The position numbers and the translations under genes were made by a program. Under the pieces are notes generated by a model. The model saw nothing but the letters and a program-made list of their open reading frames with translations, did no database searches and was not told the DNA's origin. A DNA stretch of 64,000 bases from a candidate division WOR-3 bacterium (lineage in GTDB: Bacteria; Hydrothermota; Hydrothermia; Hydrothermales; JAJRUZ01), in NCBI GenBank assembly GCA_039803925.1, contig JBDRZL010000002.1, positions 1 through 64,000 of the forward strand, read 5' to 3'. Below, in pieces: positions 10,007 to 62,424 of the stretch. Numbering within the stretch: position 1 is the stretch's first letter; each line of letters opens with the position of its first letter.

Positions 10007-10017
10007 GGTTCTAATCC
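10007..10017 (+). promoter_or_regulatory. T-arm-like 5' element (site 1)
   Basis: GGTTCTAATCC, beginning 9 nt after the -10 box and ending 30 nt before the ATG of the subtilase. One of ten copies in the window; GG/CC can pair around the 7-nt loop TTCTAAT. Confidence 0.6.
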
Positions 10018-10047
10018 ATTTTTTACAAATCCTATAAGGGGGCTTTT

Positions 10048-13000
10048 ATGAAAAAAATTATCTCCCTTATACTCCTTGTGGCCATTTTACAAGGAGCAAG
10101 AATCACACAGGACCTTGAGAGAAAACTTAATTCTTCCTCTCCTCACGAGTATATAAAAGTTAATCTTGTTCTTGAAAAACAACTTAACGGGATGGAAATT
10201 GTAAAAAATATGAAGATGTCAAAAAAGGCTATCAGAAATTATGTAAAGAATGCTTTAAAAGAATTTGCAAGGGAAACTCAAGCACCGATACTTGAAAAAT
10301 TAAAGGAACTTGAAAAAAGAGGACTGGTAAGAAACATAAAATCCCTTTGGATTGCAAATGTTATAAATTTTGAAGGTAAAAAAGAGGCTATATACGAAAT
10401 ATCAAAACTCAGTGGGATAAGTTCTATTGATTATGATGAAGAAAGATATCTTTTAATTGGTGAAAAAGAGGAAAAGTATCAGAAATTTGCAGTTCCTGAT
10501 GAAACTTCTTACCCATTAAAAACAATTGAATGGAATATTTTAAAAATAAATGCACCAGAGGTTTGGGCTCAGGGTTATAAAGGTCAGGGAGTAATAGTTG
10601 CTGTTCTTGATACAGGTGTAAGGTATACTCATTTAGACCTTGCAGATCATATATGGATAAACACAGATGAAATTCCAAATAATGGATTGGATGATGATGG
10701 AAATGGTTATATAGATGATTATTTAGGATGGGACACAGCATATGGAGACAATAACCCTTCAGATGGACATGGGCATGGAACCCATGTAGCAGGAACTGTA
10801 GCAGGTGAAGGAATTGCAGGTGATACAACCGGAGTTGCTCCTGAAGCTTTAATTATGTGTGTAAAAGTTTTGACAGATTTTGGTGGTGGAACTGAATCAG
10901 GAGTTTGGGAAGGAATGCAGTATGCAGCAGATAATGGGGCTGATATTATAACAATGTCCCTTGGTTGGAGACATGCTTGGAACCCTGACAGAGCAACATG
11001 GAGAAATGTTTGTGTAAACATAAATGCAATGGGAGTTGCTATGACTATAGCAGGTGGTAATGAAAGAGGCGTTGATACACCCCCAGATGCTATAAGAACA
11101 CCAGGTGATGTTCCACCCCCATGGATTCATCCAGACCAAGTTATTCTTGGAAGCACAGCAGGTGTTATAACTGTTGGAGCAACTGATATAAATGATGTTT
11201 ACGGTTATTTTTCAAGTCCAGGACCTGTAACATGGGAAAATGTCCCTCCCTATAATGACTGGAATTACCAACCTGAGATGGGGCTCATTGATCCTGATGT
11301 ATCTGCACCAGGAGTATGTATAACCTCGCTGAGTAATACAAGTGATAATGGCTATGAAACCTGCTGGGATGGAACTTCAATGGCAACCCCACATGTTGCT
11401 GGTCTTGTTGCTCTTATGCTCTCAAAAAATCCAGAATTAACTCCAAGAATAATTGATTCTATTATAGAATTATACGGGGTTATTGACCTTGGAAATCCTG
11501 GTAAGGATAACGATTATGGTGCAGGAAGAATTGATTGTCTTTTAGCTATAAATGCAACACCTTTACCGGGTGCTCCGGAAAAACCAACTGTTATTAGTCC
11601 TTACAACTTTGCAAAATTACCTGATTTGAATCCGGTTTTCAAATTCACTTCAACTGACCCTCAAGGTGATAATATTATATACAAAATCTACTGGTCAGGA
11701 GATACAAGTTTTGTTCAAAAGGATAGTGCTTTAACTCCACCAATGCCAAGTGGTCAGTTAGTGCAATTTGTCCTCCCTGTATCCTTAAATCAAGGTGAAA
11801 CTTACTGGTTCAAGGTAAAAGCAAGGGATACAACTTCTTCAGGATACTGGTCAGGTTTAACTCAAAAAAGGTCATTTACCATTGATACTACACTTCCCTC
11901 TAATTTCAGTTCTTGGTTCCAAACAAAAGGGGCACAATTTAAATACAATACATTTTTCGGAACAGAAATTGTGGGAGATAGTATACAATTAAAACCCTTT
12001 GGTTATATAGAGGACACCTTACTTTTTGAAAATTTTGAGATGGGTATTCCATCCACCTGGACAGTTTTAGATGGTAATTCAGATGGATTTATGTGGACTG
12101 CAGGAACCACAACAGATCTTTCCTCATATACCCCACCCAACTATGGAACTCAATATGCCTATTACTCTGATGATGAGGCGGGTAACGGTGTTATAAACTA
12201 TAATGAAGATATTATTTCACCTAAAATTCCTATTCCTTCCAATGCTTCTAATCTTTTTGTTAAATATGGTTATGGATTCCGCGTCTGGCAAACTGGTGAA
12301 ACATTTGAATTCTATGCAAGATTTTTCTCAGGTGGAACCTGGAGTCCATGGTATATTTTTAAAACATACACCTCAAGTGTGAGTGGAGAAGAAACTTTTG
12401 ACTTTTCAACTTATTTACCAAAAGACTCAATTCAGCTAAGATGGAGATATCATGATGAAAGCTCTTCAAGTCACTGGGGATGGGCATGTGCTATTGATAA
12501 TGTGGTAGTTTATTACAATTATACTTATCAGAATAATGAAGGATATGTTTTAACTTTTCCTATCAATTTTAATGATTTTCAGAATACTTATCCAAAGAAT
12601 AACTGGGGTTATGCAATTTGGGAAAAATCCAGTCCACAGGATTCTATAGGAATACAGATAGAATACTTTAACGGAACAACATGGCAAGTGATTCCAGATG
12701 CTGATTTACCGGGTAATTCTTCAGGATTTTTTACAAATGCTAAAATAGGAGCTTTATCTCTTGAAGCCCTTAATACAAATGTTTATAATTCATTAAGAGT
12801 AAAAGTTTTACTTTACAGGAAATCAATATTTACAAAAGCTCCAAATGAACCTGCCCTTTTATCTTTAGAAATTGGTGCTCCAGCAACAGAAGTAAAAGAA
12901 AAGGAAATATCCATTACTCCCTATTTCAAATTCTCGCCCCTTATTTTCAGGGAAAAAATAAACTTTAGCTTCATTCTTGAACCCTATAAAAATGCTGAAT

Positions 13001-13191
13001 TAGAAATTTATAACTCTACAGGGAGACTAATAAAAAAGGAAATTTTCAAAGGAGGAAACACTCAAAGAACTATAAATTATACCTGGGATGCAAAATCTAA
13101 AAACGGGAAAAAACTTGGAACTGGAATATACTTTATTAAATTTACAAACGGAAATTACAGAAGAACTTTAAAAGCTATACTTGTAAGATAA
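10048..13191 (+). CDS. Secreted S8 (subtilisin-family) serine protease
   Basis: 1047 aa. Signal peptide (about 1-17), an I9-like propeptide (about 30-150), then the S8 catalytic domain: Asp188 in AVLDTGV, His243 in GHGTHVAG, oxyanion Asn338 in AGGNE and Ser444 in GTSMATPHVAG. After about residue 510 come a fibronectin-like module, a jelly-roll/MAM-like module starting near the FENFEMG segment, and a C-terminal tail (IYNSTGRLIKK ... LGTGIYFIKF) resembling FlgD-like/T9SS sorting domains. Start is ATG after AAGGGGG. Expected to be exported and to degrade external proteins together with the M14 carboxypeptidase gene that follows. It has its own promoter and a T-arm-like leader element. Confidence 0.92.
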   Translation: MKKIISLILLVAILQGARITQDLERKLNSSSPHEYIKVNLVLEKQLNGMEIVKNMKMSKKAIRNYVKNALKEFARETQAPILEKLKELEKRGLVRNIKSLWIANVINFEGKKEAIYEISKLSGISSIDYDEERYLLIGEKEEKYQKFAVPDETSYPLKTIEWNILKINAPEVWAQGYKGQGVIVAVLDTGVRYTHLDLADHIWINTDEIPNNGLDDDGNGYIDDYLGWDTAYGDNNPSDGHGHGTHVAGTVAGEGIAGDTTGVAPEALIMCVKVLTDFGGGTESGVWEGMQYAADNGADIITMSLGWRHAWNPDRATWRNVCVNINAMGVAMTIAGGNERGVDTPPDAIRTPGDVPPPWIHPDQVILGSTAGVITVGATDINDVYGYFSSPGPVTWENVPPYNDWNYQPEMGLIDPDVSAPGVCITSLSNTSDNGYETCWDGTSMATPHVAGLVALMLSKNPELTPRIIDSIIELYGVIDLGNPGKDNDYGAGRIDCLLAINATPLPGAPEKPTVISPYNFAKLPDLNPVFKFTSTDPQGDNIIYKIYWSGDTSFVQKDSALTPPMPSGQLVQFVLPVSLNQGETYWFKVKARDTTSSGYWSGLTQKRSFTIDTTLPSNFSSWFQTKGAQFKYNTFFGTEIVGDSIQLKPFGYIEDTLLFENFEMGIPSTWTVLDGNSDGFMWTAGTTTDLSSYTPPNYGTQYAYYSDDEAGNGVINYNEDIISPKIPIPSNASNLFVKYGYGFRVWQTGETFEFYARFFSGGTWSPWYIFKTYTSSVSGEETFDFSTYLPKDSIQLRWRYHDESSSSHWGWACAIDNVVVYYNYTYQNNEGYVLTFPINFNDFQNTYPKNNWGYAIWEKSSPQDSIGIQIEYFNGTTWQVIPDADLPGNSSGFFTNAKIGALSLEALNTNVYNSLRVKVLLYRKSIFTKAPNEPALLSLEIGAPATEVKEKEISITPYFKFSPLIFREKINFSFILEPYKNAELEIYNSTGRLIKKEIFKGGNTQRTINYTWDAKSKNGKKLGTGIYFIKFTNGNYRRTLKAILVR

Positions 13192-13223
13192 AAACCTAAA
13201 GTTTTTGAACTTTTAAGTAAAAA

Positions 13224-13236
13224 GGGTCCGAACCCC
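13224..13236 (+). promoter_or_regulatory. T-arm-like 5' element (site 2, divergent copy)
   Basis: GGGTCCGAACCCC, 24 nt before the ATG of the carboxypeptidase. It differs from the GGGTTCAAATCCC form by transitions only and keeps the GGG/CCC stem and 7-nt loop. I see no good -10 box at the usual distance, so it may act in a read-through transcript from the subtilase. Confidence 0.45.
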
Positions 13237-13260
13237 ATTTAAAAATTATTAACCTTTTAT

Positions 13261-15522
13261 ATGTATAATTTTATAATTTCTCTTTTAATCTTTTCTTCAA
13301 ACCTAACAGTCTTACAAATTTTTGTTCCAGGGGAAAATCTTGTTCCTTTTTTTCTTCAAAATGGATTGCAAGAAATAAAAAGATATGATAGAAACAAAGG
13401 ACTACTTGAAGGAGTTTGCGATAAAAAAATTATAGATTTTCTTGAAAAAAATGGAATTGATTATATAACAATGATTCCTGACCTTGAAGAAGATTTTAAA
13501 AATAAAATGCAGAATAAAATAGATTTTGGTCCATACTATACTTATTCAGAAGCTGTTAATGCTCTTAATACAATACACAATAATTTTCCAAATCTTACAA
13601 CTTCTCCTTTAAATATTGGAACAACATGGGAAAATAGAATAATTTACGCAATGAAAATTTCTGATAATCCAACAGAGAATGAAAATGAACCTGCTGTTTT
13701 ATTAACAGGAGTTCACCATGCAAGAGAACCCATAGGATGCTCAATTGTCCTTGAATTTGCAAAGTATCTTCTTAATAACTATGGAGTTGACCCTGATATA
13801 ACATGGCTTATTGATAATAGAGAGCTATGGATTGTTCCTGTAGTTAATCCTGATGGTTATGTTTATAATGAAACATCCAATGGGTCTTGGAGAAAAAATA
13901 GAAGAAATAATGGCGGAGGTATATACGGAGTTGATTTAAACAGAAATTATGGTTATATGTGGGGATACGATAATAACGGTTCTTCACCTTATCCATCTGA
14001 TGAAACTTATAGGGGACCATCTCCTTTTTCAGAACCGGAAACCCAGGCAATGAGAGGATTATGTAATTCAATAAAGCCTGTTATAGCATTAAATTATCAC
14101 TCCTGGTCAAATTACTTACTTTTCCCATGGGGTTATGATAACTATTATACACCAGATGATGCACTATTCAGAGCAATGAGTATTGAAATGACAAAAAGAA
14201 GTGGTTATGAATATGGAACACCTTGGGAACTTCTTTATACAGCAAATGGAGATTCTGACGACTGGATGTATGGAGAACAAAATGAAAAACCAAAAATTTT
14301 AGCCTTTACTCCTGAGGTAGGTGAAGCTTTCTGGCAACCTGATACAAATATAATAAAGGAACAGATAGATGAAAATTTGCCAATGAATATGTTTGTTCTT
14401 AAAGCTGCTGGACACTTTATTACAATAGATTCTCTTAAATTTGTTGACCAGAATGGGGAGAGAATTATTAATAGAAAAGATACAATCAATTTAACTTTCT
14501 GGTTAAGAAATTGGGGAATAAATGGAAATCTAACAAATGTAACTGGGCTTTTAAAATCAACAGGAACATGTGCAAAAGTAATTGACTCATTAATAAACTT
14601 TCCAGATATACCAGCATTTCCCGGAAATTCTGTATCAAACTCTATTCCATTTAAATTAGTGGTTCATGATTCTTTTCCTGACTCTTCTGCTATACCCCTG
14701 AATTTAACCATACAAGGAAATCCAGGATTTTCAAGAGTTTACAATTTTTACATAAGTAACCCCCGAACACCTATAATCCTTTTTTATGATGGTTATGAAA
14801 CAGGACTCTCTAACTGGATTCAAGGAGGAACTCCTCAAACATGGCAAAGAACAACAAATAACCCCCATTCAGGTTATTACTCACTTACGGATAGTCCAGG
14901 AAACTATGGAGATAACATAAATACCTGGATAAGGACTGCTTCACCAATTAATCTAAATGTTAATACTGATTCAATTAAACTTATATTCTGGACAAGATAT
15001 TCTATTGAATCAGGTTGGGATTATGCATATACTGAAGTTTCAACAAATGGTTCTACATGGAATTCACTAATTTCTTTTACAGGTTCACAAACAAATTGGA
15101 AAAAAATAGTTCTTGACTTAACACCTTATAAAGGAAATCAAATTTATATAAGGTTCAGATTGTGGAGTGATAATTATATTAATTATGACGGAATATACAT
15201 TGATGATGTTTCTGTTGTTTTTAAAAAGGGACCATATTTTGCTGACTGTCCTCAAATAAGTGTTTATGAAAAAGGCTCTGATATTTTAAGGGAAAGTGTA
15301 TATCCTGAAGTAAAGACAATAAAGTTTTTCTCAATGAAGGCAAAAATTTCAGGCGAATATAAAATAAAAATCTTTGATGTAAATGGAAGAAAAATTAAAG
15401 AAGATTTTGTATATCTGAAAAAAGGTGAGGAATACAGATTCAAACCTTCTGTAAAAGGAGCTTACTTCTTTAAAATAGAAACAAAACTATTTAATAATAG
15501 GGGGAAATTTATAGCAGATTAA
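13261..15522 (+). CDS. Secreted M14 zinc carboxypeptidase
   Basis: 753 aa. Short hydrophobic N-terminus (signal peptide), a propeptide-like stretch to about 95, then the M14 domain: zinc ligands His153 and Glu156 in HHAREP and His280 in NYHSW, the substrate-binding DLNRNYGY segment, and catalytic Glu352 in FTPEVGE. Beyond about 400 are a CARDB-like strand-rich region, a jelly-roll/MAM-like domain beginning FYDGYETG (similar to the one in the preceding subtilase), and a C-terminal tail (KIFDVNGRKIKE, ending GAYFFKIETK) of the T9SS/Por type. No ribosome site precedes the ATG. Probably secreted with the subtilase for peptide scavenging. Confidence 0.9.
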   Translation: MYNFIISLLIFSSNLTVLQIFVPGENLVPFFLQNGLQEIKRYDRNKGLLEGVCDKKIIDFLEKNGIDYITMIPDLEEDFKNKMQNKIDFGPYYTYSEAVNALNTIHNNFPNLTTSPLNIGTTWENRIIYAMKISDNPTENENEPAVLLTGVHHAREPIGCSIVLEFAKYLLNNYGVDPDITWLIDNRELWIVPVVNPDGYVYNETSNGSWRKNRRNNGGGIYGVDLNRNYGYMWGYDNNGSSPYPSDETYRGPSPFSEPETQAMRGLCNSIKPVIALNYHSWSNYLLFPWGYDNYYTPDDALFRAMSIEMTKRSGYEYGTPWELLYTANGDSDDWMYGEQNEKPKILAFTPEVGEAFWQPDTNIIKEQIDENLPMNMFVLKAAGHFITIDSLKFVDQNGERIINRKDTINLTFWLRNWGINGNLTNVTGLLKSTGTCAKVIDSLINFPDIPAFPGNSVSNSIPFKLVVHDSFPDSSAIPLNLTIQGNPGFSRVYNFYISNPRTPIILFYDGYETGLSNWIQGGTPQTWQRTTNNPHSGYYSLTDSPGNYGDNINTWIRTASPINLNVNTDSIKLIFWTRYSIESGWDYAYTEVSTNGSTWNSLISFTGSQTNWKKIVLDLTPYKGNQIYIRFRLWSDNYINYDGIYIDDVSVVFKKGPYFADCPQISVYEKGSDILRESVYPEVKTIKFFSMKAKISGEYKIKIFDVNGRKIKEDFVYLKKGEEYRFKPSVKGAYFFKIETKLFNNRGKFIAD

Positions 15523-15905
15523 TCATAAGGAACTTTACGGTAATAAATAGTTTCAAAATTTTTATTTTTTAAGTTGTAGATGAATTCGATTCTCACACCT
15601 GAATAAAAAGGGTCTTTTAATCTTAAAAAATAAATAATTATAATTTTATTTTTATCCTCACTAATTCCAGAGAATAAATAATTAAACTTATGATAAAGTG
15701 AATCTTCAAGAGAAAGAAGATTTAGGATTTTTTTAAATATATAGGAATTTTGCTCAATTTTGTGTTTTGCTTCTTTTATTATTTCTTCATCATCAACTTT
15801 TTTAAAATTTGATTTGAAAGAACCTTCTTTTAATAAAACATTATTAAAATAAGATAATTTATAACAAGAAGAAAGAAAAAGAAAATAAATTAAAAATCTT
15901 TTCAT
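15519..15905 (-). CDS. Small predicted lipoprotein, function unknown
   Basis: 128 aa. The N-terminus MKRFLIYFLFLSSC has a lipobox-like LSSC, so Cys14 is the likely lipidated residue. The rest is Lys/Glu/Asn-rich with alternating strands; I do not recognise a family. Its 3' end overlaps the carboxypeptidase stop region by 4 nt on the opposite strand. It diverges from the FAD reductase: both genes appear to use the same ATTATAAT palindrome as -10 box, 6 nt from this ATG, suggesting a leaderless mRNA. Confidence 0.6.
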   Translation of the reverse strand: MKRFLIYFLFLSSCYKLSYFNNVLLKEGSFKSNFKKVDDEEIIKEAKHKIEQNSYIFKKILNLLSLEDSLYHKFNYLFSGISEDKNKIIIIYFLRLKDPFYSGVRIEFIYNLKNKNFETIYYRKVPYD

Positions 15906-15911
15906 AAATAG

Positions 15912-15919
15912 ATTATAAT
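15912..15919. promoter_or_regulatory. Shared bidirectional -10 palindrome
   Basis: The palindrome ATTATAAT provides TATAAT on both strands. It is 6 nt from the lipoprotein ATG (minus) and 8 nt from the ATG of the FAD reductase (plus). No strong -35 boxes were seen. Both transcripts would have almost no leader. Confidence 0.4.
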
Positions 15920-15927
15920 TAACCTAT

Positions 15928-17076
15928 ATGATGTTAAACAAAATCTACGATGTAATTGTAATAGGAGGAGGACCTTCAGGTTCCTTTTCCTCCCTCAAAC
16001 TCTCTGAGAAGGGAATAAAAACCCTTTTAATTGAAAAGAAAAAAATAATAGGAGAACCGATTCAATGCGGAGAAGGAATTTCTAAATTTGCCTTTGATGA
16101 AAATAAAATAAAAAAAGAAGATTTCTTTATAGATAGAAAAATAAAAGGTTCCAAAACCTTTACCCCAAGTGGGTATTACCTGATTTTCCCCATTGAAGGC
16201 TACCTTATAAAAAGAAATAAATTCGACCTCTACCTTGCTCAATTATCCAAAGAAAAAGGAACTGAAGTTAAAATAGATGAAAAAGTATTGTCTATCAATA
16301 AAATACAAAATTATTTTAAAGTAATTTCTAATAAAAGTGAATATTATTCAAGGTATATAATTTTGGCAACTGGTTATTATGAGGATATTAAGGGAATTAG
16401 TTATCCTCCAATTAAGAAAATAGTTGCTATAGAATACAGGTTTAAAAAGAATAGTTTTGATGATGAGTATCTTTATTTTTATTTTGGAGATGATTTCAAA
16501 CCATTCTATGGTTGGGTTTTTTTTCATAATGAAGAAACAGGAATAGGGACTGGTTTTTATGGAAAAAATAATAATTTAAAAGGGATTCAAAAACTTATTG
16601 AAAAATTTGGATTTAAAAACAGAGAAAAAGTAAAAAAAATAGCAGGCAAAATTCCTTTTTCAAAACCTTTATTTCCTAAGGATTATAAAGGTATATTGAG
16701 GGTCGGAGATGCAATAGGAGCAGTCCATCCATATACTGCAGGTGGTATTCACGGAGCTCTCACTACAGGAAGAATAGCTGCTGAAACATTAATAGATTAT
16801 TTTGAAAAAGAGGGAATTAATGAGATTTATTATAAAAAATTAAAAGAATTACCACTATTCAGGGATTCACTGTGGAATAAACAAAATAAATTATTTTCAA
16901 AAAACTCAAAGGAATGGGATGAAATAGGTAAATTAATGCATAAAAGAATTTATTCAAAAACTCCCTGGATTAGAGCAATTTTCTATTTATTTTTTAATCC
17001 TTTTTCTACATTTAACCTTTTATTTTTTTTAAATTTGCAAAAAGAGTTTAAGTTTTCAGAAAATTATTCCTATTAA
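15928..17076 (+). CDS. Geranylgeranyl reductase family FAD-dependent oxidoreductase
   Basis: 382 aa. N-terminal FAD-binding Rossmann motif VIGGGPSGSFSS, followed by a PIQCGEGIS segment characteristic of the archaeal/bacterial geranylgeranyl reductase group (COG0644), and the second FAD motif VGDAIGAVHPYTAGGIHGA near residue 260. Members reduce double bonds of isoprenoid chains or act as generic flavin dehydrogenases; the substrate here is open. The next gene follows after 13 bp with a good AAGGAGG site, so they form an operon. Confidence 0.82.
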   Translation: MMLNKIYDVIVIGGGPSGSFSSLKLSEKGIKTLLIEKKKIIGEPIQCGEGISKFAFDENKIKKEDFFIDRKIKGSKTFTPSGYYLIFPIEGYLIKRNKFDLYLAQLSKEKGTEVKIDEKVLSINKIQNYFKVISNKSEYYSRYIILATGYYEDIKGISYPPIKKIVAIEYRFKKNSFDDEYLYFYFGDDFKPFYGWVFFHNEETGIGTGFYGKNNNLKGIQKLIEKFGFKNREKVKKIAGKIPFSKPLFPKDYKGILRVGDAIGAVHPYTAGGIHGALTTGRIAAETLIDYFEKEGINEIYYKKLKELPLFRDSLWNKQNKLFSKNSKEWDEIGKLMHKRIYSKTPWIRAIFYLFFNPFSTFNLLFFLNLQKEFKFSENYSY

Positions 17077-19405: not shown

Positions 19406-19412
19406 TTAAAAA

Positions 19413-19427
19413 GGGGTTCAAATCCCC
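19413..19427 (+). promoter_or_regulatory. T-arm-like 5' element (site 3)
   Basis: GGGGTTCAAATCCCC: the strongest copy, with a 4-bp GGGG/CCCC stem and a 7-nt loop TTCAAAT that fits the tRNA T-loop consensus exactly. It lies 21 nt before the nrdJ ATG and is followed by an AAGGAG ribosome site. Confidence 0.7.
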
Positions 19428-30708: not shown

Positions 30709-32391
30709 TCAGTCTCTTCTTTCCAGTTTTTCAAGAAGGGATTTTAGTTTTTCAGCTCTCTTAGGATGTCTTAACTTTTTCAATGCCTGGGCTTCTATCT
30801 GTCTTATTCTCTCTCTTGTAACTCCAAATATTCTACCTACCTGTTCAAGTGTCATAGGTGGATGATTACCAAGACCAAATCTTAACTTAATAACCTTTTG
30901 TTCTCTCTTTGTTAAAGTTGATAGAACTTCCTCAATTGTTTTTTTAATAATTGCTTCACGGGCAAGTTCAGAAGGAGATTTTGTAAACTGGTCAGCAATT
31001 ACCTCTTCCATAACTCCTTCCTCATCTTTTCCTATAGGTTTATCAAGAGAAAGAGGCTGATGAGAAACATCAAGAGCTTGTTTCACCTTTTCTTCAGGTA
31101 AACCTAAAATATCGGAAAGTTCCCTAACAGTTGGTTCTCTTCCATAGGTTTGTAAAAAATCTTTTTGTGCTTTTGAGATTTTTGTTAAAGTTTCTATCAT
31201 ATGAACAGGAACCCTTACAGTTCTTGAATTATCAGCAATTGCTCTTGTTATTGCCTGTCTTATCCACCAAGTAGCATATGTTGAGAATTTATAACCTTTT
31301 CTGTAATCAAATTTTTCTACAGCCTTTAAAAGACCGATATTGCCCTCTTCTATTAAATCAAGAAATTCAATTCCCCTGTTCATAAACTTCTTAGCAGTTC
31401 CTATCACTAATCTAACATTTCCTTCAACCATCTTTTTCCTTGCATAATTATAAGCCTCTTTTGCTTTTTCTATTTCTTCTTTAATTTTTTCAAGTTCTTT
31501 GTAAGAAAAACCAAGTTTTTTTTCATATTCTCTTATTGAATTTTTCAAAACCTTTAATGTCTCCTTAACTTTACTTATCACAGGGTCATTATTTGAATTA
31601 TTTTTCTCCTTTTCCTCTAATTCTTCTTTTAATCTTTTATATTCTAAATTTAAATTTTCAAGGGTTTTTATCTCTTCATATAATCTGTCAACATTTTCCT
31701 GTACATAACTGAATTTTGGTACTATTTTTGAAAATAATTTTTCAAGTTCATTCTTTTCTTCCTCATTTAAATCCTTTAAATTTTTCTTTTTATTTTCAAA
31801 AATATCTTCATAAAATTTTAAAAATTCATCTATACCCTTTTGCACTCTCTTCTTTTCTTTTCTGTTAACAACTTTATTTGTCCAGTAGCTTGAATCAACT
31901 TCCAGTATTTCCTCAGGCTGCAATTCAAGATCCTTAACTTTTCTTAGAAAGAAAACAAATCTTTTTAACCCAAAATCAGTTTTAAAAAGAATTTCCTTCA
32001 TTTTTTCCTTAGCATCAAAAATAGTCTTAGCAAGAGCTACCTCTTCTTCTTTTGTCAAAAGTCTTAAACTGGAAATCTGCTTCAAATAAGTTTTAACAGG
32101 GTCATCCTTTACCTTAATCTCGGGTTCCTCAATCTCCCTTTCTTTTTTTCTTTCATCTTCTTCAACAATCTCTATTCCCTCAGCAAATAATGCCTCAATA
32201 ACCTCATCAACAAGATTTGGAGGTAGATTGGTTGTAAGGTCGTTTAAATCTTCCTGTCTTATTTGTTTATTTTTCTTGGCTTTTTCCATAATCCTATCTA
32301 TAACACTCTGAATTAACATCTGTTCAATATCTTTTCCTTCTATTTCATTATTTTTTTTATTTTTAATTCTTTTACTGTTTTTCACTGACAT
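30709..32391 (-). CDS. rpoD: RNA polymerase primary sigma factor (sigma-70)
   Basis: 560 aa. An N-terminal acidic/region 1.1-like part, [10 protein letters not shown] (region 1.2), a Lys/Glu-rich non-conserved insertion of about 200 residues, region 2 ([39 protein letters not shown]), region 3, and region 4 ([24 protein letters not shown]). Its start overlaps dnaG by 10 nt, giving the rpsU-mutS2-dnaG-rpoD order. A -10 box and T-arm-like element inside the dnaG 3' end could give rpoD a private transcript. Confidence 0.96.
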
Positions 32392-34055
32392 TTTTCCTCC
32401 TTTTCTTTTTGGCTAATAGGATTTGAACCCTTACTTTCCTTATACTCATTCCACTCCTTAAAAATTTTTTCTTTTTTCAATATTTTCTTCATTTTTTTCT
32501 CAAGCTTCTCAAAAGCAAATTCGTATGGTTCAACTTCTATCTTTTTTTCAAAATTTACAAACTTTTCTCTTGCTTTAAATATTGCTTCCACCACCTTTTT
32601 CCTTTCATTATCACTTAACTCAAAAAGAAGCTCCTCCAAGCTGCTTCCTTCTCGAATTTTAATTAAAATTCTTTTTAAAAGTTCACTCTTAAATACTCTT
32701 TCATCTATACCTCTCTTTTCAATTTCTTCTTTATTAAATTTGTTAAAAGAAGCTATTATACCAAAAAGACTGAACTCTGAAGGTAAAGTATCCTTACCTT
32801 CATTTTTTTCTTCTCCCAAAAATTTAACTTTTGACCTTATATATTCCGGAGATATTAAAAATTTTTCTGAAACTCTTTTAATAAACAATTCTCTCTCAAG
32901 CTCAGAGGGTATATTGGATATAAACTCTATCATTTCATTGAGAAGAATACTCTGAGCATAAGGATCATAAGGAATATTTTCTGGAAGAAGAGCATCAAGA
33001 AAATTTTTAGAGGAACTCAAAACTTTTTCCATTTCTTCCCTACTCTCTTTTTTTAGGTAAGAATCAGGATCTTCATTAGGAGGTAGTTCTGCGATTTTAA
33101 CCTTCAAATTCGTTTTAAGTAAAAAAGGTAAAGTTCTTTTCATTCCACGTTTTCCTGCATCATCTCCATCAAATAGTATTATAATAATATCAGCAAATCT
33201 CTTCATAATCAAGGCTTGTTCAACTGAAAAAGCAGTTCCAAGCGGTGCCACAGTGTTTTCAAAACCATTTTCAACCATCCTCATTACATCCGTATAACCT
33301 TCTACAAGTATAAGGGTATTTTCCTTTTTTGCCTTGTTTTTAGCAATATCAATCCCAAATAGATTTTTACTTTTCTTAAAAATCTTACTATCTGGAGAAT
33401 TCAAATATTTGGGTTCACCCTCAAAAGCTCTTCCTCCGAAAGCTATACACTTAGAAGAAGTATTAAAAATAGGAAAAATAATCCTATCCTTAAAAAAATC
33501 CTTTAATACCCCTCCTAAACCTGTAATAAGACCAACTTCAAGGAGAAGTGATGGGTTTATTCCCTTTTCTCTTGCTTTTTTAAGAATATAATCACCAGAA
33601 GCTGGTGCATAACCTATTCTAAATCTTCTTATTGTATTTAACTTAAAACCCCTTCCTTCAAGATAGTTCCGTGCTTTTTCTCCTTCTTTTTCAAATAAAA
33701 TCTTTTCATACTCATTAAGAGCAAACTCAAGAACCTCAAAAAGCTTTAAAATTTCCCTATCCTCAGAAATTTTATCTTCCTTTAATTTTATTCCTGCATC
33801 TTTTGCAAGTTCTTTTAAGGCTTCATACTTTGATATACCTTCTATTTCAGAGATAAGATGTACTAAATTCCCTGATTTTCCACATCCAAAACAATAAAAA
33901 AGACCTCTTTCAGGATCAAAAGAAAGGGAAGGCTTTGTATCAGGATGAAAGGGGCATAAAGACTGGTAATTTTTACCGCTCTTTTTCAGATCAAGATATC
34001 TCTGAGCTATTTCAAGAGGAGAAATTGAAGCTATTATTTCATCGTAAATATTCAT
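32382..34055 (-). CDS. dnaG: DNA primase
   Basis: 557 aa. CHC2 zinc finger with C34, H37, C55 and C58 ([11 protein letters not shown] ... [10 protein letters not shown]), a DnaG core with [17 protein letters not shown], and a Toprim domain with [10 protein letters not shown] and [14 protein letters not shown] shorter C-terminal helicase-interaction region follows. Makes RNA primers for replication. Overlaps mutS2 by 4 nt upstream and rpoD by 10 nt downstream. The last about 15 codons include the T-arm-like element of rpoD. Confidence 0.95.
32419..32430 (-). promoter_or_regulatory. T-arm-like 5' element (site 4) upstream of rpoD
   Basis: Minus strand GGGTTCAAATCC within the dnaG 3' end, 27 nt before the rpoD ATG. 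A TATAAG box (32444-32439) ends 9 nt before GGTTC, the same spacing as at sites 1 and 3. No convincing -35 box was seen. Confidence 0.55.
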
Positions 34056-36462: not shown

Positions 36463-36475
36463 GGGAATAGAACCC
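36463..36475 (-). promoter_or_regulatory. T-arm-like 5' element (site 5) upstream of rpsU
   Basis: Minus strand GGGTTCTATTCCC, directly after the stop of the HIT gene and 26 nt before the rpsU ATG, followed by AAGGAGG. A weak TAAGAT lies 16 nt upstream of GGTTC; there may be no local promoter. Confidence 0.6.
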
Positions 36476-40613: not shown

Positions 40614-41165
40614 TTATTCCTCCTTTTCTATTTCACTTTTTTTGGGAATTGAACCCATTTCTTTCTTTTCTTCTTTAAAAAACCCTACAACCACTTTCGC
40701 TGGATTTATTGCTTTGCCCATAAATTTCAATCCTCTTTGAACACTTTTTATTATTTTTTTGTCTAAACTTTTATCAAAAACTTCCTGTAAATCAACAGCT
40801 TCATGAAACTCTGGATTAAAATCCTCGCCTTCCACTGGTTCTATTATCTCACCCCCTTCCTCATTCAATATATTAATAAATTGTTTGTAAATCATTTCTA
40901 CACCTTTTTTAAGATTAAGAGTATCATTATTATTTTCATTAATTATTTCTAATGCTCTTCCTAAATTATCAATTGCTAAAAAAAACTTCTGAATCAATTC
41001 TTTTTTTCCTTCATTTTTTGCCCCTTTAAACTCCTCCTCTTTTCTTTTTTTAAATTTGTTGAAATCCATAATTGTTCGTGTATAGAGTTCTCTAAACTCT
41101 TCTGCTTCTTTATAATTAAAAAGCAATTCTTCTTTAATTCTTTCAAGCCATTTCTTTTTTTCCAT
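40614..41165 (-). CDS. grpE: Nucleotide exchange factor GrpE
   Basis: 183 aa. N-terminal coiled coil, then [30 protein letters not shown], and the conserved C-terminal beta domain with [10 protein letters not shown] and NPAKVVVGF. It releases ADP from DnaK. The promoter's -10 box ends 6 nt before the ATG, so a leaderless transcript is expected. The C-terminal residues from about 171 on are extra to the family and encode the T-arm-like element on the mRNA. Confidence 0.94.
40644..40656 (-). promoter_or_regulatory. T-arm-like 5' element (site 6) upstream of dnaK
   Basis: Minus strand GGGTTCAATTCCC, located in the last codons of grpE and 34 nt before the dnaK ATG. I see no -10 box at the 9-nt spacing, so here the element may act on a read-through or processed transcript. 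Confidence 0.6.
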
Positions 41166-52777: not shown

Positions 52778-52790
52778 GGGGATAGAACCT
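52778..52790 (-). promoter_or_regulatory. T-arm-like 5' element (site 7) upstream of the thiolase operon
   Basis: Minus strand AGGTTCTATCCCC, 20 nt before the thiolase ATG at 52757. GGTTC starts 11 nt after the -10 box. Confidence 0.65.
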
Positions 52791-56361: not shown

Positions 56362-56372
56362 GGAGTTGAACC
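56362..56372 (-). promoter_or_regulatory. T-arm-like 5' element (site 8) upstream of the DUF1571 gene
   Basis: Minus strand GGTTCAACTCC, 24 nt before the ATG at 56337. Loop TTCAACT fits the T-loop consensus. One base separates it from site 9 on the other strand. Confidence 0.6.
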
Positions 56373-56373
56373 T

Positions 56374-56385
56374 GGTTCTATCCCC
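56374..56385 (+). promoter_or_regulatory. T-arm-like 5' element (site 9) upstream of fumarase beta
   Basis: GGTTCTATCCCC, 35 nt before the ATG at 56421. Same sequence as site 7 from GGTTC onward. Confidence 0.6.
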
Positions 56386-56420
56386 ATTATTATAAAAAAA
56401 GCAAGATTAAAAAACAAATA

Positions 56421-56975
56421 ATGAAAGATATAAAAATTAAGACACCAGTTGATGAAGAAACAATTTTATCAATAAAAGCAGGGGATCCAGTTTATATTTC
56501 AGGAATTATTTATACAGCAAGAGATGCTGCTCATAAAAGGATGCTTGAAGATTATAAAGGTGGTAAAGGTCTTCCCATTGATTTAAAGGGTCAAATAATA
56601 TACTATGTTGGTCCAACTCCAAGTAAACCCGGACAGGTGATAGGTTCAGCAGGTCCAACTACTTCAATAAGAATGGATCCCTATACTCCTTTTATACTTG
56701 AAATGGGTGTAAAAGCAACAATTGGAAAAGGAGAAAGGACTCCTCAAGTTATTGAGTCTCTTAAGAAGTTTAAAGCAATTTATCTTGTTGCAGTGGGAGG
56801 GGCAGGTGCTTTAATTTCAAGAACAATAAAAAGGGTTAGAGTTATTGCTTATGAAGATCTTGGCCCTGAGGCAATAAGAGAGCTGGAAGTTGAAGATTTT
56901 CCAACAATTTGTGCAATTGATGCTTACGGAAACAATCTCTTTGAACAAGGGGTTGAAAAATTCCGTAGAGAATAA
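56421..56975 (+). CDS. Fumarate hydratase class I, beta subunit (C-terminal domain)
   Basis: 184 aa. Matches the beta subunit of two-part class I fumarase/tartrate dehydratase: SGIIYTARDAAHKRM, IYYVGPTPSKPGQVIGSAGPTTS, GKGERTP and VGGAGALISRTIK. The iron-sulfur alpha subunit, usually the gene just before it, is absent here and must lie elsewhere. Fumarase interconverts fumarate and malate. No ribosome site precedes the ATG, but a T-arm-like element does. Confidence 0.9.
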   Translation: MKDIKIKTPVDEETILSIKAGDPVYISGIIYTARDAAHKRMLEDYKGGKGLPIDLKGQIIYYVGPTPSKPGQVIGSAGPTTSIRMDPYTPFILEMGVKATIGKGERTPQVIESLKKFKAIYLVAVGGAGALISRTIKRVRVIAYEDLGPEAIRELEVEDFPTICAIDAYGNNLFEQGVEKFRRE

Positions 56976-57666
56976 AATATTTGTAGGTACATCGGGCTGG
57001 GCTTATTCATGGAATGAAGGGGGTAACTTTGAATGGTTTGTTAAGGAAAGCAATTTAAATGCTATTGAATTAAATGCTTCCTTTTACAGATTTCCACTTT
57101 CTTCTCATATAAATTCCTGGGCAAAGAAAACTTTTAATTTAAGATGGAGTGTTAAGGTGAATCAATTTATAACGCATGTTTTTAAATTTTCTGAAAAAGC
57201 TTTTTTTACATGGGAAAAATTTAAAAATCTCTTTAGACCCCTTGAAAATTTCATAGATTTTTATCTATTTCAAACACCACCTAATTTTTCTGATAAAAAT
57301 AGAGAAAAATTGGAAAAATTTATAAAATTTACAAATTTAAAGGAAAAGTTTGCCTTTGAGCCAAGAGAAAAATCCTGGTTTAAAAAGGAAAATTATAAAT
57401 GGGCAAAAAATCTAAATATTACTTGGGTTTCAATGGATGCACCTATATTTCCAAGAGATATTATAAATCTTAACGGAATAGTCTATTTAAGAATGCACGG
57501 AAGAACTGACTGGTATTCTCATTATTATGAAGATGAAGAATTAAAAGAAATTGCTGAAAGAATTATAAAAACAAAGCCAGAAAAAATTTATGTATTTTTT
57601 AACAATAACCATTCAATGCTTGAAAATGCAAGAAAAATGAAAAAAATACTTGAAAGTTCTGTTTAA
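56953..57666 (+). CDS. DUF72 domain protein
   Basis: About 237 aa. KIFVGTSGWAYSWN is the family's first strand, followed by AIELNASFYRFP, RWSVKVNQFITH, a TIM-barrel pattern, FAFEPREKSW and YLRMHGR. DUF72 proteins have unknown function. The start is unclear: no ATG with a ribosome site exists. I chose the TTG at 56953, which overlaps the fumarase end by 23 nt; the frame stays open to about 56890. Confidence 0.82.
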   Translation: MKNSVENKIFVGTSGWAYSWNEGGNFEWFVKESNLNAIELNASFYRFPLSSHINSWAKKTFNLRWSVKVNQFITHVFKFSEKAFFTWEKFKNLFRPLENFIDFYLFQTPPNFSDKNREKLEKFIKFTNLKEKFAFEPREKSWFKKENYKWAKNLNITWVSMDAPIFPRDIINLNGIVYLRMHGRTDWYSHYYEDEELKEIAERIIKTKPEKIYVFFNNNHSMLENARKMKKILESSV

Positions 57667-57684
57667 AAAATATTTTTAAAATTA

Positions 57685-58185
57685 CTATTCTACTCTTGGA
57701 AGTTCATCAAGGCTTTTTAAACCAAACATTTTCAAAAATTTCTCTGTAGTTCCATAAAGTAAAGGAGCTCCTTTTATTTTTTTTCTTCCCACAACCTTTA
57801 TAAGTCCTTTTTCAAGCAAACTTCTAAGTGTGAAATCTGCAGATGTTCCTTTTAAAATTTCTATCTCTGCTTTTGTAATAGGCTGTTTATAAGCTATTAT
57901 TGCGAGAGTTTCAAGCATTGCTTTTGAAATTCTAAAAGAATTCTCCCCTCTTAATTTCTTTACATAATCAGCATAATCTTCTTTCGTATACATTACATAA
58001 CCACCGGCAACTTCAAATATTCCAAAAGCTCTTTCTTTATATTCTTCCTTTATTTTTTCTATTTCCTCCTTTACCCTTTCCTCCCCAAATCCTGTAATCT
58101 TTGAAATCTTTTTTAAGGTAATAGGCTTTGATGAGGCAAAAAGCAATGCCTCAATAATTCTTTTTAAAGACCTTTCATTTTCCAT
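57685..58185 (-). CDS. scpB: Segregation and condensation protein B
   Basis: 166 aa. Two winged helices: IEALLFASSKPITLKKISKITG and ISKAMLETLAIIAYKQPITKAEIEILKG, then SLLEKGLIKVVGRKK and the YGTTEKFLKMFGL tail. With ScpA it forms the kleisin complex of bacterial SMC. scpA is not adjacent. Start overlaps murJ by 22 nt. Confidence 0.94.
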   Translation of the reverse strand: MENERSLKRIIEALLFASSKPITLKKISKITGFGEERVKEEIEKIKEEYKERAFGIFEVAGGYVMYTKEDYADYVKKLRGENSFRISKAMLETLAIIAYKQPITKAEIEILKGTSADFTLRSLLEKGLIKVVGRKKIKGAPLLYGTTEKFLKMFGLKSLDELPRVE

Positions 58186-59651
58186 TTTTCTTTAAAAAAT
58201 AAAAAGAATATTAAAGATAAAAAAGAATCAAGGAAAAATTCAAGAAAATTGTTTTGAAAAAATCTCATAAATATTATAAGGGAAAAAATTAAAGAAAAAG
58301 ATATGAAAAAAAGATATTCCTTTACATCAATAAATTCAGGTGTATAAAAGCATATTGATATTAAAGCAAAAAAAGAAGAAATTGAAGAGGCAAGTGCAAG
58401 TCCTACATAACCCATAAATTTAAAAAGTAAAGGAGCAAAAACTAAAAAGGATGTTAGCATATTAAAATGGGAAATATTTGCCTCAAGAATTTTTTTCTGA
58501 GAATAAAAATAATTTAAATGAACATTAAAAAGAGAAGAAGGAAGAATACCAACTGAAAACATTATAAAAGCAAGAGCAGTTTTATAGGTATCAAGATTTG
58601 TAAATTTACCCCTTTCAAAAAATAATTTCACAATAAAATCAGAATGAATTATTAAAATCAAAGATAAGGGAAATAAAACAATAAGGGAAAACTGATATAT
58701 TTTTTTAAGATAATCAAGTTTTCTTTCACTCTCACTCATATAGGGAAGGGAAACTGTTGCAAGACCTATACCCAGTATTGCGATGGGAAAATGTCTCAAT
58801 CTAAAAGAATATGATAGATAGGAGAGCTCTCCTTCAGGTAAATAGGAAGCAAGGAATGTTGTAAAAATTATGATAATTTCATTTGTTAACATTGCAAATA
58901 AAACAGGAATTAAAAGTTTAAAAAAATCTTTGATTTCAGGAATTAAAATATTTTTTGTAAGAAATAATTTTATTTTTCTTATCACAAAAATAAATTGAAA
59001 GAAAGCCTGAAAAAAAGACCCTGCAACAACAGCAAGAGAAAGAGAATATAGAAAATATTTTCCCTTTAAATGTAGATAGAAATATGTAAAAATTCCAATA
59101 ACAAGAAAAGTAAGATTAAAGAAAAAAGGTGCAAAGGAAACAGGGAAAAATTTTTTTTCTGAATTTAAAATAGAGCCAAAATAACCTGCTAAAATGATGA
59201 AAAAAACAAAGGGAAACATAAGTTCTAAGGTATTTTTTGCATAAATAAATTTGAATTCAGTATTTTTAAAACCCGGTGCAAAAATTAAAATTAAAACCGG
59301 TGAAAGTAAAATCCCAAGAATTGTAAAAAATAAAGAAACCGAAAAAAAAATTGTAAAGGTTGAACCAATAAATCTTTCATATTTTTCAGCATCTTTTTTA
59401 TTTTCCACAAATAAAGGAACAAGAGAAACCTGCATCATCTGTTCTCCTATAAAAACTCTCAAAAAGTTCATTATTCTGAAAGAAGCATAAAAAACATCTG
59501 AAAGATGTGTGGCACCCAGAGAATAAGCAAGGAACATTTCCCTTAAAAAACCAAATGTCCTTGAAAATAAAGTACCTGTTCCAAAAATTAAAAGGTTTTT
59601 TAAAGTTTTTGAGCCTACTTTTTGACCTCTACTATATCCTCTGGAATCCAT
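58164..59651 (-). CDS. murJ: Lipid II flippase MurJ
   Basis: 495 aa with about 14 hydrophobic segments. N-terminal TLFSRTFGFLREMFLAYSLG and ATHLSDVFYASFRI are the MVF/MurJ signature; Arg residues in the central cavity region are retained. It moves lipid II across the inner membrane for peptidoglycan synthesis. The chosen ATG overlaps the upstream GWxTD gene by 37 nt; a slightly later start is possible. Confidence 0.92.
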   Translation of the reverse strand: MDSRGYSRGQKVGSKTLKNLLIFGTGTLFSRTFGFLREMFLAYSLGATHLSDVFYASFRIMNFLRVFIGEQMMQVSLVPLFVENKKDAEKYERFIGSTFTIFFSVSLFFTILGILLSPVLILIFAPGFKNTEFKFIYAKNTLELMFPFVFFIILAGYFGSILNSEKKFFPVSFAPFFFNLTFLVIGIFTYFYLHLKGKYFLYSLSLAVVAGSFFQAFFQFIFVIRKIKLFLTKNILIPEIKDFFKLLIPVLFAMLTNEIIIIFTTFLASYLPEGELSYLSYSFRLRHFPIAILGIGLATVSLPYMSESERKLDYLKKIYQFSLIVLFPLSLILIIHSDFIVKLFFERGKFTNLDTYKTALAFIMFSVGILPSSLFNVHLNYFYSQKKILEANISHFNMLTSFLVFAPLLFKFMGYVGLALASSISSFFALISICFYTPEFIDVKEYLFFISFSLIFSLIIFMRFFQNNFLEFFLDSFLSLIFFLFFKEKWKMKGL

Positions 59652-60877
59652 TTTTTCCAGTCTGCCCTTGATGGTTCTTCAGGAATTGAAGAATAAACCA
59701 AAAGATAATTACCATCAAGATTTATATCTACAAAGATAAATTGAATTTTTCTTTCACCGGTATAAATCCATGATTCCCAAGCCCTTTCGCTTTCAGGATA
59801 ATAAGAGTTATTAACATAAGAAGGTTTACCATATTTTATAAGTATTCTACCCCGATCTGTATTTCTACCTCTAAGTTTTAAACCCATAGAAAAATTTTGA
59901 TCAGCAAAATTTATCCTATCAACAAGTTCTGTAATAAACTCATTTGCTTCTGTTTTAGAATCAGGGTCAAACTTTTTCCAGAATTTTTGGACAAAGAGTT
60001 TTTTCCCATTAAAATCTGTTATTCTTTTAAACTCTTCCATTTCTTCATTTGAAGCAAAATAATCTATAAAAAACAGGTAATTTTCATAAAACTTTCTCAC
60101 ATTTTCTTCCTGAACTTTTTTCTGAGAGATATATCTGAATTTTTCTTCCTTAGAAAATAATATATTTCCATTTTTAATAACACTTATCACTAAATTAAAA
60201 TCACCTGTTCCCAGTTTATATAAGGGTATCCTTGCACTGGTTTCACCCCTTTGAACAAAAGGAGCCTTTTCTTCTTGTTCATAAATTTTTTCTCCTCCTT
60301 TAAAGATTTCATATCTTAATATCTCATCACCCTCAAAACCATAAAGTTCATAAAAATAATGTAAGGAGGTATCAGGAAAAACAAATAAAAAAGGTAATCT
60401 TATTTCAAATCCAAAATTTTCTCTTTTAAAGAAATAATCCTCCTTATTACCTATTTGAGGGGTTATAAATATGTCAGAAATAAAAGGAAAATTAATTTTT
60501 AAATTTTTTCTAAAATTCACCTCTCCAATTTTTGTTTTTGTTGAAAATTTAACCTTTATCTCGTAATTACCTTCTTCAAGGTTTAAAGCAAAAACATCAT
60601 AAATTTTTGTTTCTTCAGCTACTCTTCCTATTTTAAAAGTCTTTGTCCATCTTTCACTTCCACCTTTTCCGCTTAAAACTTCAAACCAAATAACTTCAAT
60701 ATCAAATTTACCTTCTTCAAAACCCTTCTTTTTTTCAAGGGAAATCTGATTAACATTAAGAGAATAATAAAGTTCAATTGTAAAAAACTTTCCTTTAAAA
60801 ACTGCGAATGGAAAAAGATAAAATTCAAAATTACCCTGTGATAAAAAGACCTCCGAAATTAAAAGAAAAACAAACAT
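59615..60877 (-). CDS. GWxTD domain-containing secreted protein
   Basis: 420 aa. Signal peptide MFVFLLISEVFLSQG. The C-terminal about 150 residues match the GWxTD domain: FVQKFWKKFDPDS, DRINFADQNFS, RGRNTDRGRILIKYGKP, and ending with RAWESWIYTGERKIQFIFVD. The N-terminal part is beta-rich. This domain is typical of Acidobacteria and FCB-like phyla; function unknown. It follows its paralogue by one base. Confidence 0.85.
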   Translation of the reverse strand: MFVFLLISEVFLSQGNFEFYLFPFAVFKGKFFTIELYYSLNVNQISLEKKKGFEEGKFDIEVIWFEVLSGKGGSERWTKTFKIGRVAEETKIYDVFALNLEEGNYEIKVKFSTKTKIGEVNFRKNLKINFPFISDIFITPQIGNKEDYFFKRENFGFEIRLPFLFVFPDTSLHYFYELYGFEGDEILRYEIFKGGEKIYEQEEKAPFVQRGETSARIPLYKLGTGDFNLVISVIKNGNILFSKEEKFRYISQKKVQEENVRKFYENYLFFIDYFASNEEMEEFKRITDFNGKKLFVQKFWKKFDPDSKTEANEFITELVDRINFADQNFSMGLKLRGRNTDRGRILIKYGKPSYVNNSYYPESERAWESWIYTGERKIQFIFVDINLDGNYLLVYSSIPEEPSRADWKKWIPEDIVEVKK

Positions 60878-60878
60878 A

Positions 60879-62039
60879 TCAGTACTGAGGGTATAATTCT
60901 CTCATATCATTAATAAGCTCGTAATCACCAAAACCTGTTTTATCAACAAAAATGAACCTTAATCTGAGGCTATTGTAATACCAGATCTGATAGGGATAAG
61001 AGCTAAATTCAAGGGGATGATCTTCTATAAAATCAGGAGGGCCAAATCTTATATAAATCCTTCCTCTATCAGTTTTATACCCTTTAATTGGACCTGAAAA
61101 ATTCTTCATTACATATTGAAATCTTTCAAGAAATTTAATTTCCAGTTCATTGTGGAGTGTTACTGGATCAGGATCTCTTTTATCCCAGAAATTTCTCCAT
61201 GCTTTTTTTCTTTCCTCAGGTTTAACATCCAATAGTTCTTCAATATCACTCCTCTGAAATATTATGTTTAAAGCATCTACAATATCATTCCATTCATAAA
61301 TTGAAAACAAATCTAAATTTTTTAATAAATACTCATCTTCAAATTCAACCTTTCTTTTTTCTGAATTAAGCTTTACCCTGTATTTCAAAATTTCTTCATT
61401 AAATTCTGATAGGTTAAGGGTTTTAAAGATCCTATTTATTCCCCTTTTAAAATCAAAGGAAAAATTTTTAAAAGTCTCATTTTTTTTATAAAAAATAATC
61501 TCACCCTTTCCTTCCTCTTTTGAATCAAAATTTATCAAAATATTATAAAGAGAATCCGAAAGTGGTGGTTTCTTGTATGATACACTGTCTCCATTTTTTT
61601 TAAAGAAAATTATATCACCAAATTTAACAAAATCCTTATTAATAAAAGTCCTTGAAAAACTCCATCTTTTTTGAGAGTTAAGATCAGTAACTTCAATATT
61701 TATTTTATCTACACTTTTTTGAACAGTAATCCATTTTTCAAAAACAATTTTATTTTCTCTTTCTCTTGTTTCCTCATATTTTTCAAAGGAGAACCTTTTA
61801 AAAAACCTTACAAAATATTCATTCTTATCTTCTGTTGTGCTATATATATCAATCCTAATTCCTCCTGAAAATTCCTTTTCCTCTTTTTTAAAAACAAGAA
61901 TGTAAGGAGAAATTTTAATATTTATTAAAATTGAATCACCTTTTTCGTAAATTTTTTTAATAACATAAAAGTTAATTGTATCAGGAGTTATATAGGAGTA
62001 GATAAAGGCAGAATAAAATATTTTTAAAAAAAATATCAC
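60879..62039 (-). CDS. GWxTD domain-containing secreted protein
   Basis: 386 aa, paralogue of the next gene. GTG start at 62039 overlapping the small membrane-protein gene by 4 nt (GTGA); hydrophobic signal segment FFLKIFYSAFIYSYI. GWxTD region: WRNFWDKRDPDPV, RFQYVMKNFSG, KGYKTDRGRIYIRFGPPD, YQIWYYNSLRLRFIFVD. The pair likely acts together at the cell envelope. Confidence 0.83.
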   Translation of the reverse strand: MIFFLKIFYSAFIYSYITPDTINFYVIKKIYEKGDSILINIKISPYILVFKKEEKEFSGGIRIDIYSTTEDKNEYFVRFFKRFSFEKYEETRERENKIVFEKWITVQKSVDKINIEVTDLNSQKRWSFSRTFINKDFVKFGDIIFFKKNGDSVSYKKPPLSDSLYNILINFDSKEEGKGEIIFYKKNETFKNFSFDFKRGINRIFKTLNLSEFNEEILKYRVKLNSEKRKVEFEDEYLLKNLDLFSIYEWNDIVDALNIIFQRSDIEELLDVKPEERKKAWRNFWDKRDPDPVTLHNELEIKFLERFQYVMKNFSGPIKGYKTDRGRIYIRFGPPDFIEDHPLEFSSYPYQIWYYNSLRLRFIFVDKTGFGDYELINDMRELYPQY

Positions 62040-62392
62040 CAGTTAAATCCTCCCAATTCTGAAAGCATTGAGGCAAAAAATGCAGAAGCTACTATTGCTA
62101 CAAGGAAAATAATAATACCTAAAATTATTCCCACAATTATTAAAATTCCAATTAACTGGAAAAGAAATCTAATTTTTGAATGATATTGAATTAAATCAGC
62201 TTCACTTTTTGATATAGAAGCTTTTTCTGCTGAAGAAGCTGCCTGAAGTGCAGTTATTCCAATCCATATAGGAATCCATGCAATAAGTATCCCTATTATG
62301 GTGATTGCCTCTAAAATACCTGCTATTATGTTAACTATACCAAAAAATTTAATCCAGCCTGTCCCCTTTGAAGCACTTTCATATATATCCAT
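62036..62392 (-). CDS. Small membrane protein, DUF5362-like
   Basis: 118 aa, with hydrophobic segments at about 15-55 and 78-110, joined by a loop rich in Ala/Ser/Lys (AASSAEKASISKSEA). Fits the DUF5362 pattern, but the match is by general appearance. A GGAGGTGA ribosome site precedes the ATG. It heads the operon with the GWxTD pair, murJ and scpB, and has a T-arm-like element. Confidence 0.6.
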   Translation of the reverse strand: MDIYESASKGTGWIKFFGIVNIIAGILEAITIIGILIAWIPIWIGITALQAASSAEKASISKSEADLIQYHSKIRFLFQLIGILIIVGIILGIIIFLVAIVASAFFASMLSELGGFNW

Positions 62393-62413
62393 TTTATCAC
62401 CTCCAAATTAAAA

Positions 62414-62424
62414 GGAATTGAACC
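62414..62424 (-). promoter_or_regulatory. T-arm-like 5' element (site 10)
   Basis: Minus strand GGTTCAATTCC, 21 nt before the ATG at 62392. A TAAAAT (62439-62434) ends 9 nt before it, the same spacing as sites 1, 3 and 4; its -35 box (TTACAC, 62462-62457) is weak. Confidence 0.6.

Follow-up and report, generated by a model that had tools for sequence, protein, structure and literature searches.

We describe a short RNA element that resembles the T-arm of transfer RNA (tRNA) and stands just upstream of start codons in a candidate division WOR-3 bacterium, and we suggest that it is probably a cis-acting messenger RNA (mRNA) signal for translation initiation, which is read as a T-loop and substitutes for the Shine-Dalgarno (SD) sequence. 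The element was noticed in a stretch of 64,000 nucleotides (nt; positions 1 to 64,000 of contig JBDRZL010000002.1, assembly GCA_039803925.1), hereafter called the window, and was followed through the source genome and its relatives. Many bacterial genes lack an SD sequence, and how ribosomes find the starts of such genes is an open question. In the parts of the genomes that were read, the element precedes about 8% of the genes (122 of 1499).

About 839 kb of the source genome (G000, 1.84 Mb) was read, comprising 770 genes at 95% coding density, and parts of a congener (G001) and of a member of another genus of the same family (G003) were pooled with it. Genes were called with a simple dicodon gene caller written for this analysis, in which the start calls partly use SD strength. 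An order-level relative without the element (G004) served as the outgroup in the SD comparison, and the scan of the phylum covered 147 genomes, four from the family of G000 and 143 others.

Position relative to the start codon

The initial annotation had made its proposal depend on a genome-wide enrichment of the element before start codons, and this enrichment was clear. In the 839 kb of G000, 67 of 85 non-tRNA copies were in sense orientation and 10-45 nt ahead of a start codon, compared with none of 12 matches to the reversed pattern; across the controls, reversed pattern and fixed single-base variants alike, the number was 0-5. Over the whole G000 genome GGTTCNANYCC was found 210 times, a count that includes tRNA T-arms, and the reversed pattern 14 times. 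When the core pattern was counted in 1447 upstream regions of G000, G001 and G003, there were 112 sense matches at 15-31 nt, two at 45-61 nt and one in antisense. The 3' end of the element lies mostly 19-25 nt before the start codon, and the spacing is narrow both for copies without an SD (median 21 nt, interquartile range 20-23) and for copies with one (23 nt, interquartile range 23-27).

The spacing to promoters is loose. GGTTC had first been placed, at five sites, 9-11 nt after a -10 box, with the hairpin at the very 5' end of the mRNA and a possible role in transcription initiation, and the analysis does not support the last two of these proposals. The -10-like boxes lie anywhere between 2 and 30 nt before the element and peak only weakly at 10-13, so the proposed distance is not general, and anchoring to the promoter is ruled out by this scatter. 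Moreover, 9 of the 67 copies lie wholly within the end of an upstream open reading frame (ORF), where they often encode Gly-Ser-Asn/Ile-Pro. The tight spacing to the start, the loose spacing to -10 boxes and the copies inside ORFs together tie the signal to the start codon and not to the 5' end or the promoter, and the copies inside upstream ORFs fit a role at the level of translation better than one at the 5' end.

These observations bear on two other explanations. The first is that the element acts in DNA, as a promoter part, an initially transcribed sequence or a regulator site; most copies are indeed intergenic and near promoters, but the compensatory stem changes described below, the strict sense orientation, the anchoring to start codons, the copies in ORFs and the lack of a fixed -10 spacing largely refute this explanation and leave it very improbable. 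The second is that a 5'-terminal or leader hairpin shields the mRNA from 5'-dependent decay. The weak excess of -10-like boxes means that the hairpin may be near the 5' end in some transcripts, but we consider protection rather improbable, given the spacing fixed to the start codon and not to the promoter, the copies inside ORFs and an SD substitution that protection would not lead one to expect. In addition, the selection of only three base pairs, the weak minimum free energy and the strict loop identity are unlike a generic protective stem. The ompA leader hairpin stabilises its mRNA in a manner that depends on its 5'-terminal position and stem strength; hairpins of the ompA type share with the element a place in the 5' leader, but the element differs by its conserved T-loop and its fixed distance from the start.

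Comparison with Shine-Dalgarno sequences

We then compared the genes that carry the element with their orthologues in G004. An SD was present in 15 of 20 G004 orthologues of element genes (75%) and in 65 of 224 orthologues of other genes (29%; p = 7e-5), and the difference remained when the comparison was limited to genes whose upstream gap was 20 nt or more (12/16 vs 21/69; p = 0.0015). In the family itself, the same element genes have an SD in 20% of cases, and a near-perfect SD was found in 14 of the 20 genes in G004 but in only one of the 20 in the family. For 11 element genes the SD is present in G004 and absent from the family, and for none is it the other way round, while the corresponding numbers for other genes are 30 and 25 (p = 0.005). 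On this comparison the element appears to stand where an SD would be, which supports a role in translation initiation.

The element resembles the SD in being an upstream signal anchored to the start codon, and it occupies genes that have a strong SD in G004. However, it is structured, lies about 20-35 nt before the start and can coexist with an SD. It is not complementary to the 3' end of the 16S ribosomal RNA, which ends GGATCACCTCCTTTCT, and it is located 19-25 nt upstream and not 5-10 nt.

Structure of the element

The element comprises 13 nt, N-GG-TTCNANY-CC-N', in which a 3-bp stem encloses a 7-nt loop that matches the tRNA T-loop consensus exactly. Among 114 distinct pooled copies, G53, U54 (T54), A58 and C61 as well as the second G and C of GG/CC are invariant (positions 53-61 are labelled in tRNA numbering). 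Position 55 is C instead of T in 7 of the 114 copies, position 60 is a pyrimidine apart from three G variants, and C56 variants number 13 (A 8, T 3, G 2), a separate variant count beside 105 consensus copies. At the sequence level the consensus has the features of a tRNA T-loop, namely the 7-nt loop, U54, C56, A58, Y60 and the G53-C61 closing pair, and the T-loop identity first proposed for the motif is borne out in every such constraint and also in a covarying stem pair. This third (outer) pair is Watson-Crick in 89 of 114 copies compared with 44.3 expected by shuffling (z = 9.3); GC occurs in 43 copies, AT in 37, GT in 9, TA in 6 and CG in 3, and the pair is absent in 16 pooled copies and in four of the ten window copies, the other six forming it. 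The next five pairs (outer pairs 2-6) show no covariation, which rules out a longer stem, and we therefore define the element as a 3-bp stem with a 7-nt T-loop.

When leaders were folded, stability was marginal with no excess over shuffles; of the five leaders from the window or the genome for which the exact sequence was used, four had a minimum free energy of -5 kcal/mol or weaker. Because of these marginal energies, the element presumably needs a partner; a 3-bp hairpin also has too little strength to serve simply as a roadblock, which implies specific recognition.

The 35 local tRNAs have the same T-arm consensus, including G52-C62 in 34 of them, yet their stem is of 5 bp. This likeness is what would be expected if the copies were mobile repeats or tRNA debris scattered before genes. 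For the present copies this origin is refuted, since there is no similarity beyond the 13 nt, position and orientation are strict, copies are kept at orthologues with unrelated flanks, and covariation ends after the third pair. Mobile repeats or tRNA debris may, however, have been the evolutionary origin of the element.

Conservation and range

Conservation at orthologous genes, on which the initial proposal also depended, was found between genera. In orthologous pairs of G000 and G003, whose proteins have a median identity of 66%, the element is present in both members of 11 pairs, in one member of four and in neither of 133 (p = 3e-13). Around the shared elements the flanks are unrelated, and several outer pairs show compensatory changes (a-t to g-c, t-a to a-t, c-g to t-a). 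As judged from these sequences, the element is conserved by selection.

The element is confined to four genomes of one family among the 147 genomes of the phylum. In the whole-genome scan, the pattern followed by ATG at 17-27 nt had 133, 149, 97 and 183 matches in the four family genomes, and the numbers dropped to 29, 30, 22 and 37 at 33-43 nt. The other 143 genomes had 4-31 matches at 17-27 nt, and among the matches listed these were largely tRNA genes. In G004 the pattern was found at 15-31 nt in one of 685 genes.

Proposed mode of action and candidate partners

Based on the start anchoring, the conservation and the SD comparison, we suggest the following mode of action. The hairpin would lie just outside the part of the leader that is covered by the initiating 30S subunit; it would be recognised as a T-loop by the 30S subunit, an initiation factor or a ribosome-associated protein; and this recognition would recruit or position the ribosome, either replacing SD pairing or acting alongside it. 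In a more specific form, which we put forward only tentatively, the initiating ribosome or a lineage-specific ribosome-bound factor would directly read the leader T-loop as a structural equivalent of the SD, and the element would be a second class of start signal in bacteria, one that rests on mimicry of tRNA, originated in a single family and took over from SDs within it.

Here, we need to consider several points that weigh against an SD-substituting initiation signal. First, the anti-SD is intact in the 16S ribosomal RNA, and an SD accompanies the element in 38-43% of the genes that have an upstream gap, which means that replacement is not strict. Second, a single outgroup and 20 genes underlie the SD comparison, and the start caller uses SD strength, although it does so alike for all genes and genomes. 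Third, no clear receptor was found when the 16S ribosomal RNA was examined for a receptor loop. Fourth, we found no family-specific copy gain of the TruB, TrmFO, U5-methyltransferase, S1, tRNA_bind or RRM families. Finally, codon bias points only weakly to high expression (overall p = 0.018; p = 0.11 when the comparison is with genes that have similar upstream gaps). On the other side, the presence of translation and growth genes such as tuf, rpsA and dnaK downstream of the element speaks for the suggested role.

In the 16S ribosomal RNA, helix 23 has an A680-U710 pair in G000 (L041), G001 (L067) and G003 (L087), and the 16 other sequences compared have C-G. The tip of helix 26 is slightly longer in the family, and it was rejected as a clear receptor because its loop varies from one genus to the other. 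A short stand-alone tRNA_bind (CsaA-like) frame is present in two of the four family genomes (G001:C1:53431, G003:C30:34221) and in none of the nine other relatives searched.

Alternatively, a T-loop enzyme such as TruB, TrmFO or a U5-methyltransferase, or some other dedicated RNA-binding protein, might bind or modify the element and thereby activate or repress translation of a regulon of about 100-180 genes. The loop has the T-loop consensus, as the initial annotation pointed out in suggesting such an enzyme, and TruB is present in all thirteen genomes searched. It has been reported that TruB recognises GUUC in E. coli mRNAs (PMC13062092) and that it acts on 53-GUUYRANYC-61, for which the described minimal substrates have a 5-bp stem in a 17-mer T-arm (PMC7912444). 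However, only 3 bp are selected here, and besides the copies with C55, A56 occurs in eight further copies. Not every copy can depend on pseudouridylation by TruB, given that position 55 is C in some. TruB is also single-copy throughout, including in relatives without the element, and no family-specific paralogue of TruB, TrmFO or a U5-methyltransferase was found. TrmFO had no full-length match in G000, perhaps because of an assembly gap, and is present in the other three family genomes. Furthermore, the gene set resembles a general growth set more than a regulon, and replacement of SDs is unexpected for a pure repressor site. The T-loop likeness thus stands, while the case for TruB pseudouridylation is weakened, and we regard a regulon of this kind as unlikely.

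Relation to known RNA elements

No described family was found to match the element, as had been supposed from the start. In the window, scanned down to E = 5, no Rfam family (release 15) was over the gathering threshold, and the transfer-messenger RNA (tmRNA) models matched nothing but T-arm fragments, one at 19412 and one at 40643, with scores that fell far short of the gathering cutoff. ARAGORN detected no tRNA or tmRNA in the window. A T-box riboswitch, with its Stem I, antiterminator and T-box sequence, had no Rfam match there either, and the element is only 13 nt long.

The thrS operator is a leader RNA that imitates part of a tRNA and affects translation, as the element may do, but it is a larger regulator of a single gene, whereas the element is a minimal T-arm reused across a large gene set. 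The same likeness and the same difference apply to the yjdF riboswitch (PMC9142559). T-loop hairpins in mRNAs are known as modification sites (PMC11549392), and elbow-binding RNAs (PMC4810234) and tRNA-like riboswitches (PMC9142559) have been described. The sites of TruB/Pus4/TRUB1 (GUUCNANNC hairpins) and the m1A sites of TRMT6/61A present the same T-loop consensus in short mRNA stem-loops (PMC11549392, PMC13062092, PMC7912444). These modification sites are scattered over mRNAs, whereas the element is anchored to the start. A TruB/TRUB1 site has U at 55 and a stem of about 5 bp; in the element U55 is dispensable in the seven copies with C, and three pairs are selected.

Searches of open-access papers returned no start-anchored T-arm signal. 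The T-loop as a building block is well known, and the start-codon-anchored T-arm is probably a previously undescribed kind of start signal. In terms of comparative genomics, one family has a compact, structure-based leader signal in place of strong SDs, which gene finders and RNA-family scans currently miss. If our suggestion is correct, the element would add a new kind of signal to those known for translation initiation and link T-loop recognition to this step, and it would provide a short portable RNA part for tests of SD-independent initiation.

Downstream genes

The element genes, whose names were mostly read from the sequence and partly from Pfam, include those for S1 (rpsA), S12 (rpsL), S15 (rpsO), S20 (rpsT), S21 (rpsU), L31 (rpmE), EF-Tu (tuf), EF-P (efp), an EF-G-like GTPase, RRF (frr), DnaK, GroES, RpoD, DnaA, DnaN, HU, a cold-shock protein, acyl carrier protein, metK, transaldolase, pilins and secreted proteases. 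Ribosomal protein genes inside tight operons are without the element. In three family genomes the element also precedes the gene 3' of truB (L127, L129, L130), which is rpsO by its position and its start MLTKE. At G000 C5:34671-35281 (L036), three small pilin-like genes stand in a row, each with its own element, and two of them share an identical N-terminal part.

Copies in the window

The pattern GGTYCNANYCC had 13 matches in the window compared with 0.91 +/- 0.93 in dinucleotide shuffles. Ten of them are the copies reported initially, all of which were confirmed, with coordinates shifted by 0-2 nt; each is in sense orientation, and its 3' end is 21-36 nt ahead of a plausible start. Three further matches (20811 -, 52636 +, 56610 +) lie inside coding sequence.

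Table 1. Start-anchored copies of the element in the window, with the outer pair and the gene that follows.
Position	Strand	Outer pair	Distance to start (nt)	Start	Downstream gene	Remark
10007..10017	+	T-A (10006/10018)	30	10048	secreted subtilase (Peptidase_S8)	
13225..13235	+	G-C	25	13261	zinc carboxypeptidase (Peptidase_M14)	GGTCCGAACCC, C at position 55
19415..19425	+	G-C	23	19449	ribonucleotide reductase (nrdJ-like)	
32419..32429	-	G-U	27	32391	rpoD (sigma-70)	
36464..36474	-	G-C	27	36436	rpsU (ribosomal protein S21)	
40645..40655	-	G-C	35	40609	dnaK	
52779..52789	-	unformed (A/C)	21	52757	thiolase	
56362..56372	-	unformed (A/A)	24	56337	gene without Pfam family	
56374..56384	+	unformed (T/C)	36	56421	fumarase C-terminal subunit	
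62414..62424	-	unformed (T/T)	21	62392	DUF5362 protein	

Several of these copies can be followed into relatives. The thiolase gene has the element and no SD, while its G004 orthologue has AAGGAGG and no element; the gene for the fumarase C-terminal subunit likewise has the element and no SD, and its G004 orthologue has an SD. The element of the DUF5362 gene is kept at the orthologue in another genus (G003). A leader in G001 that looks orthologous to that of the nrdJ-like gene (G001:C24:6932-6984) contains GGTTCTAATCC, and the likely orthologous leader of dnaK in G001 is at G001:C16:45955.

Two window copies overlap the 3' ends of upstream ORFs. The rpoD element lies within ORF 32382-34055, where it encodes Gly-Ser-Asn-Pro, and the dnaK element lies within ORF 40614-41165 (grpE by position), where it encodes Gly-Ser-Ile-Pro. 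ORF-internal elements were also observed at C1:224938, C2:108523 and C3:86033 of G000, and such copies extend the upstream proteins by Gly-Ser-Asn/Ile-Pro tails. The phase of the nine full ORF overlaps was 0 or 2 and never 1.

At 56362-56384, two elements stand back to back on opposite strands between divergent genes that are 83 nt apart, so that each promoter should overlap the leader of the other gene.

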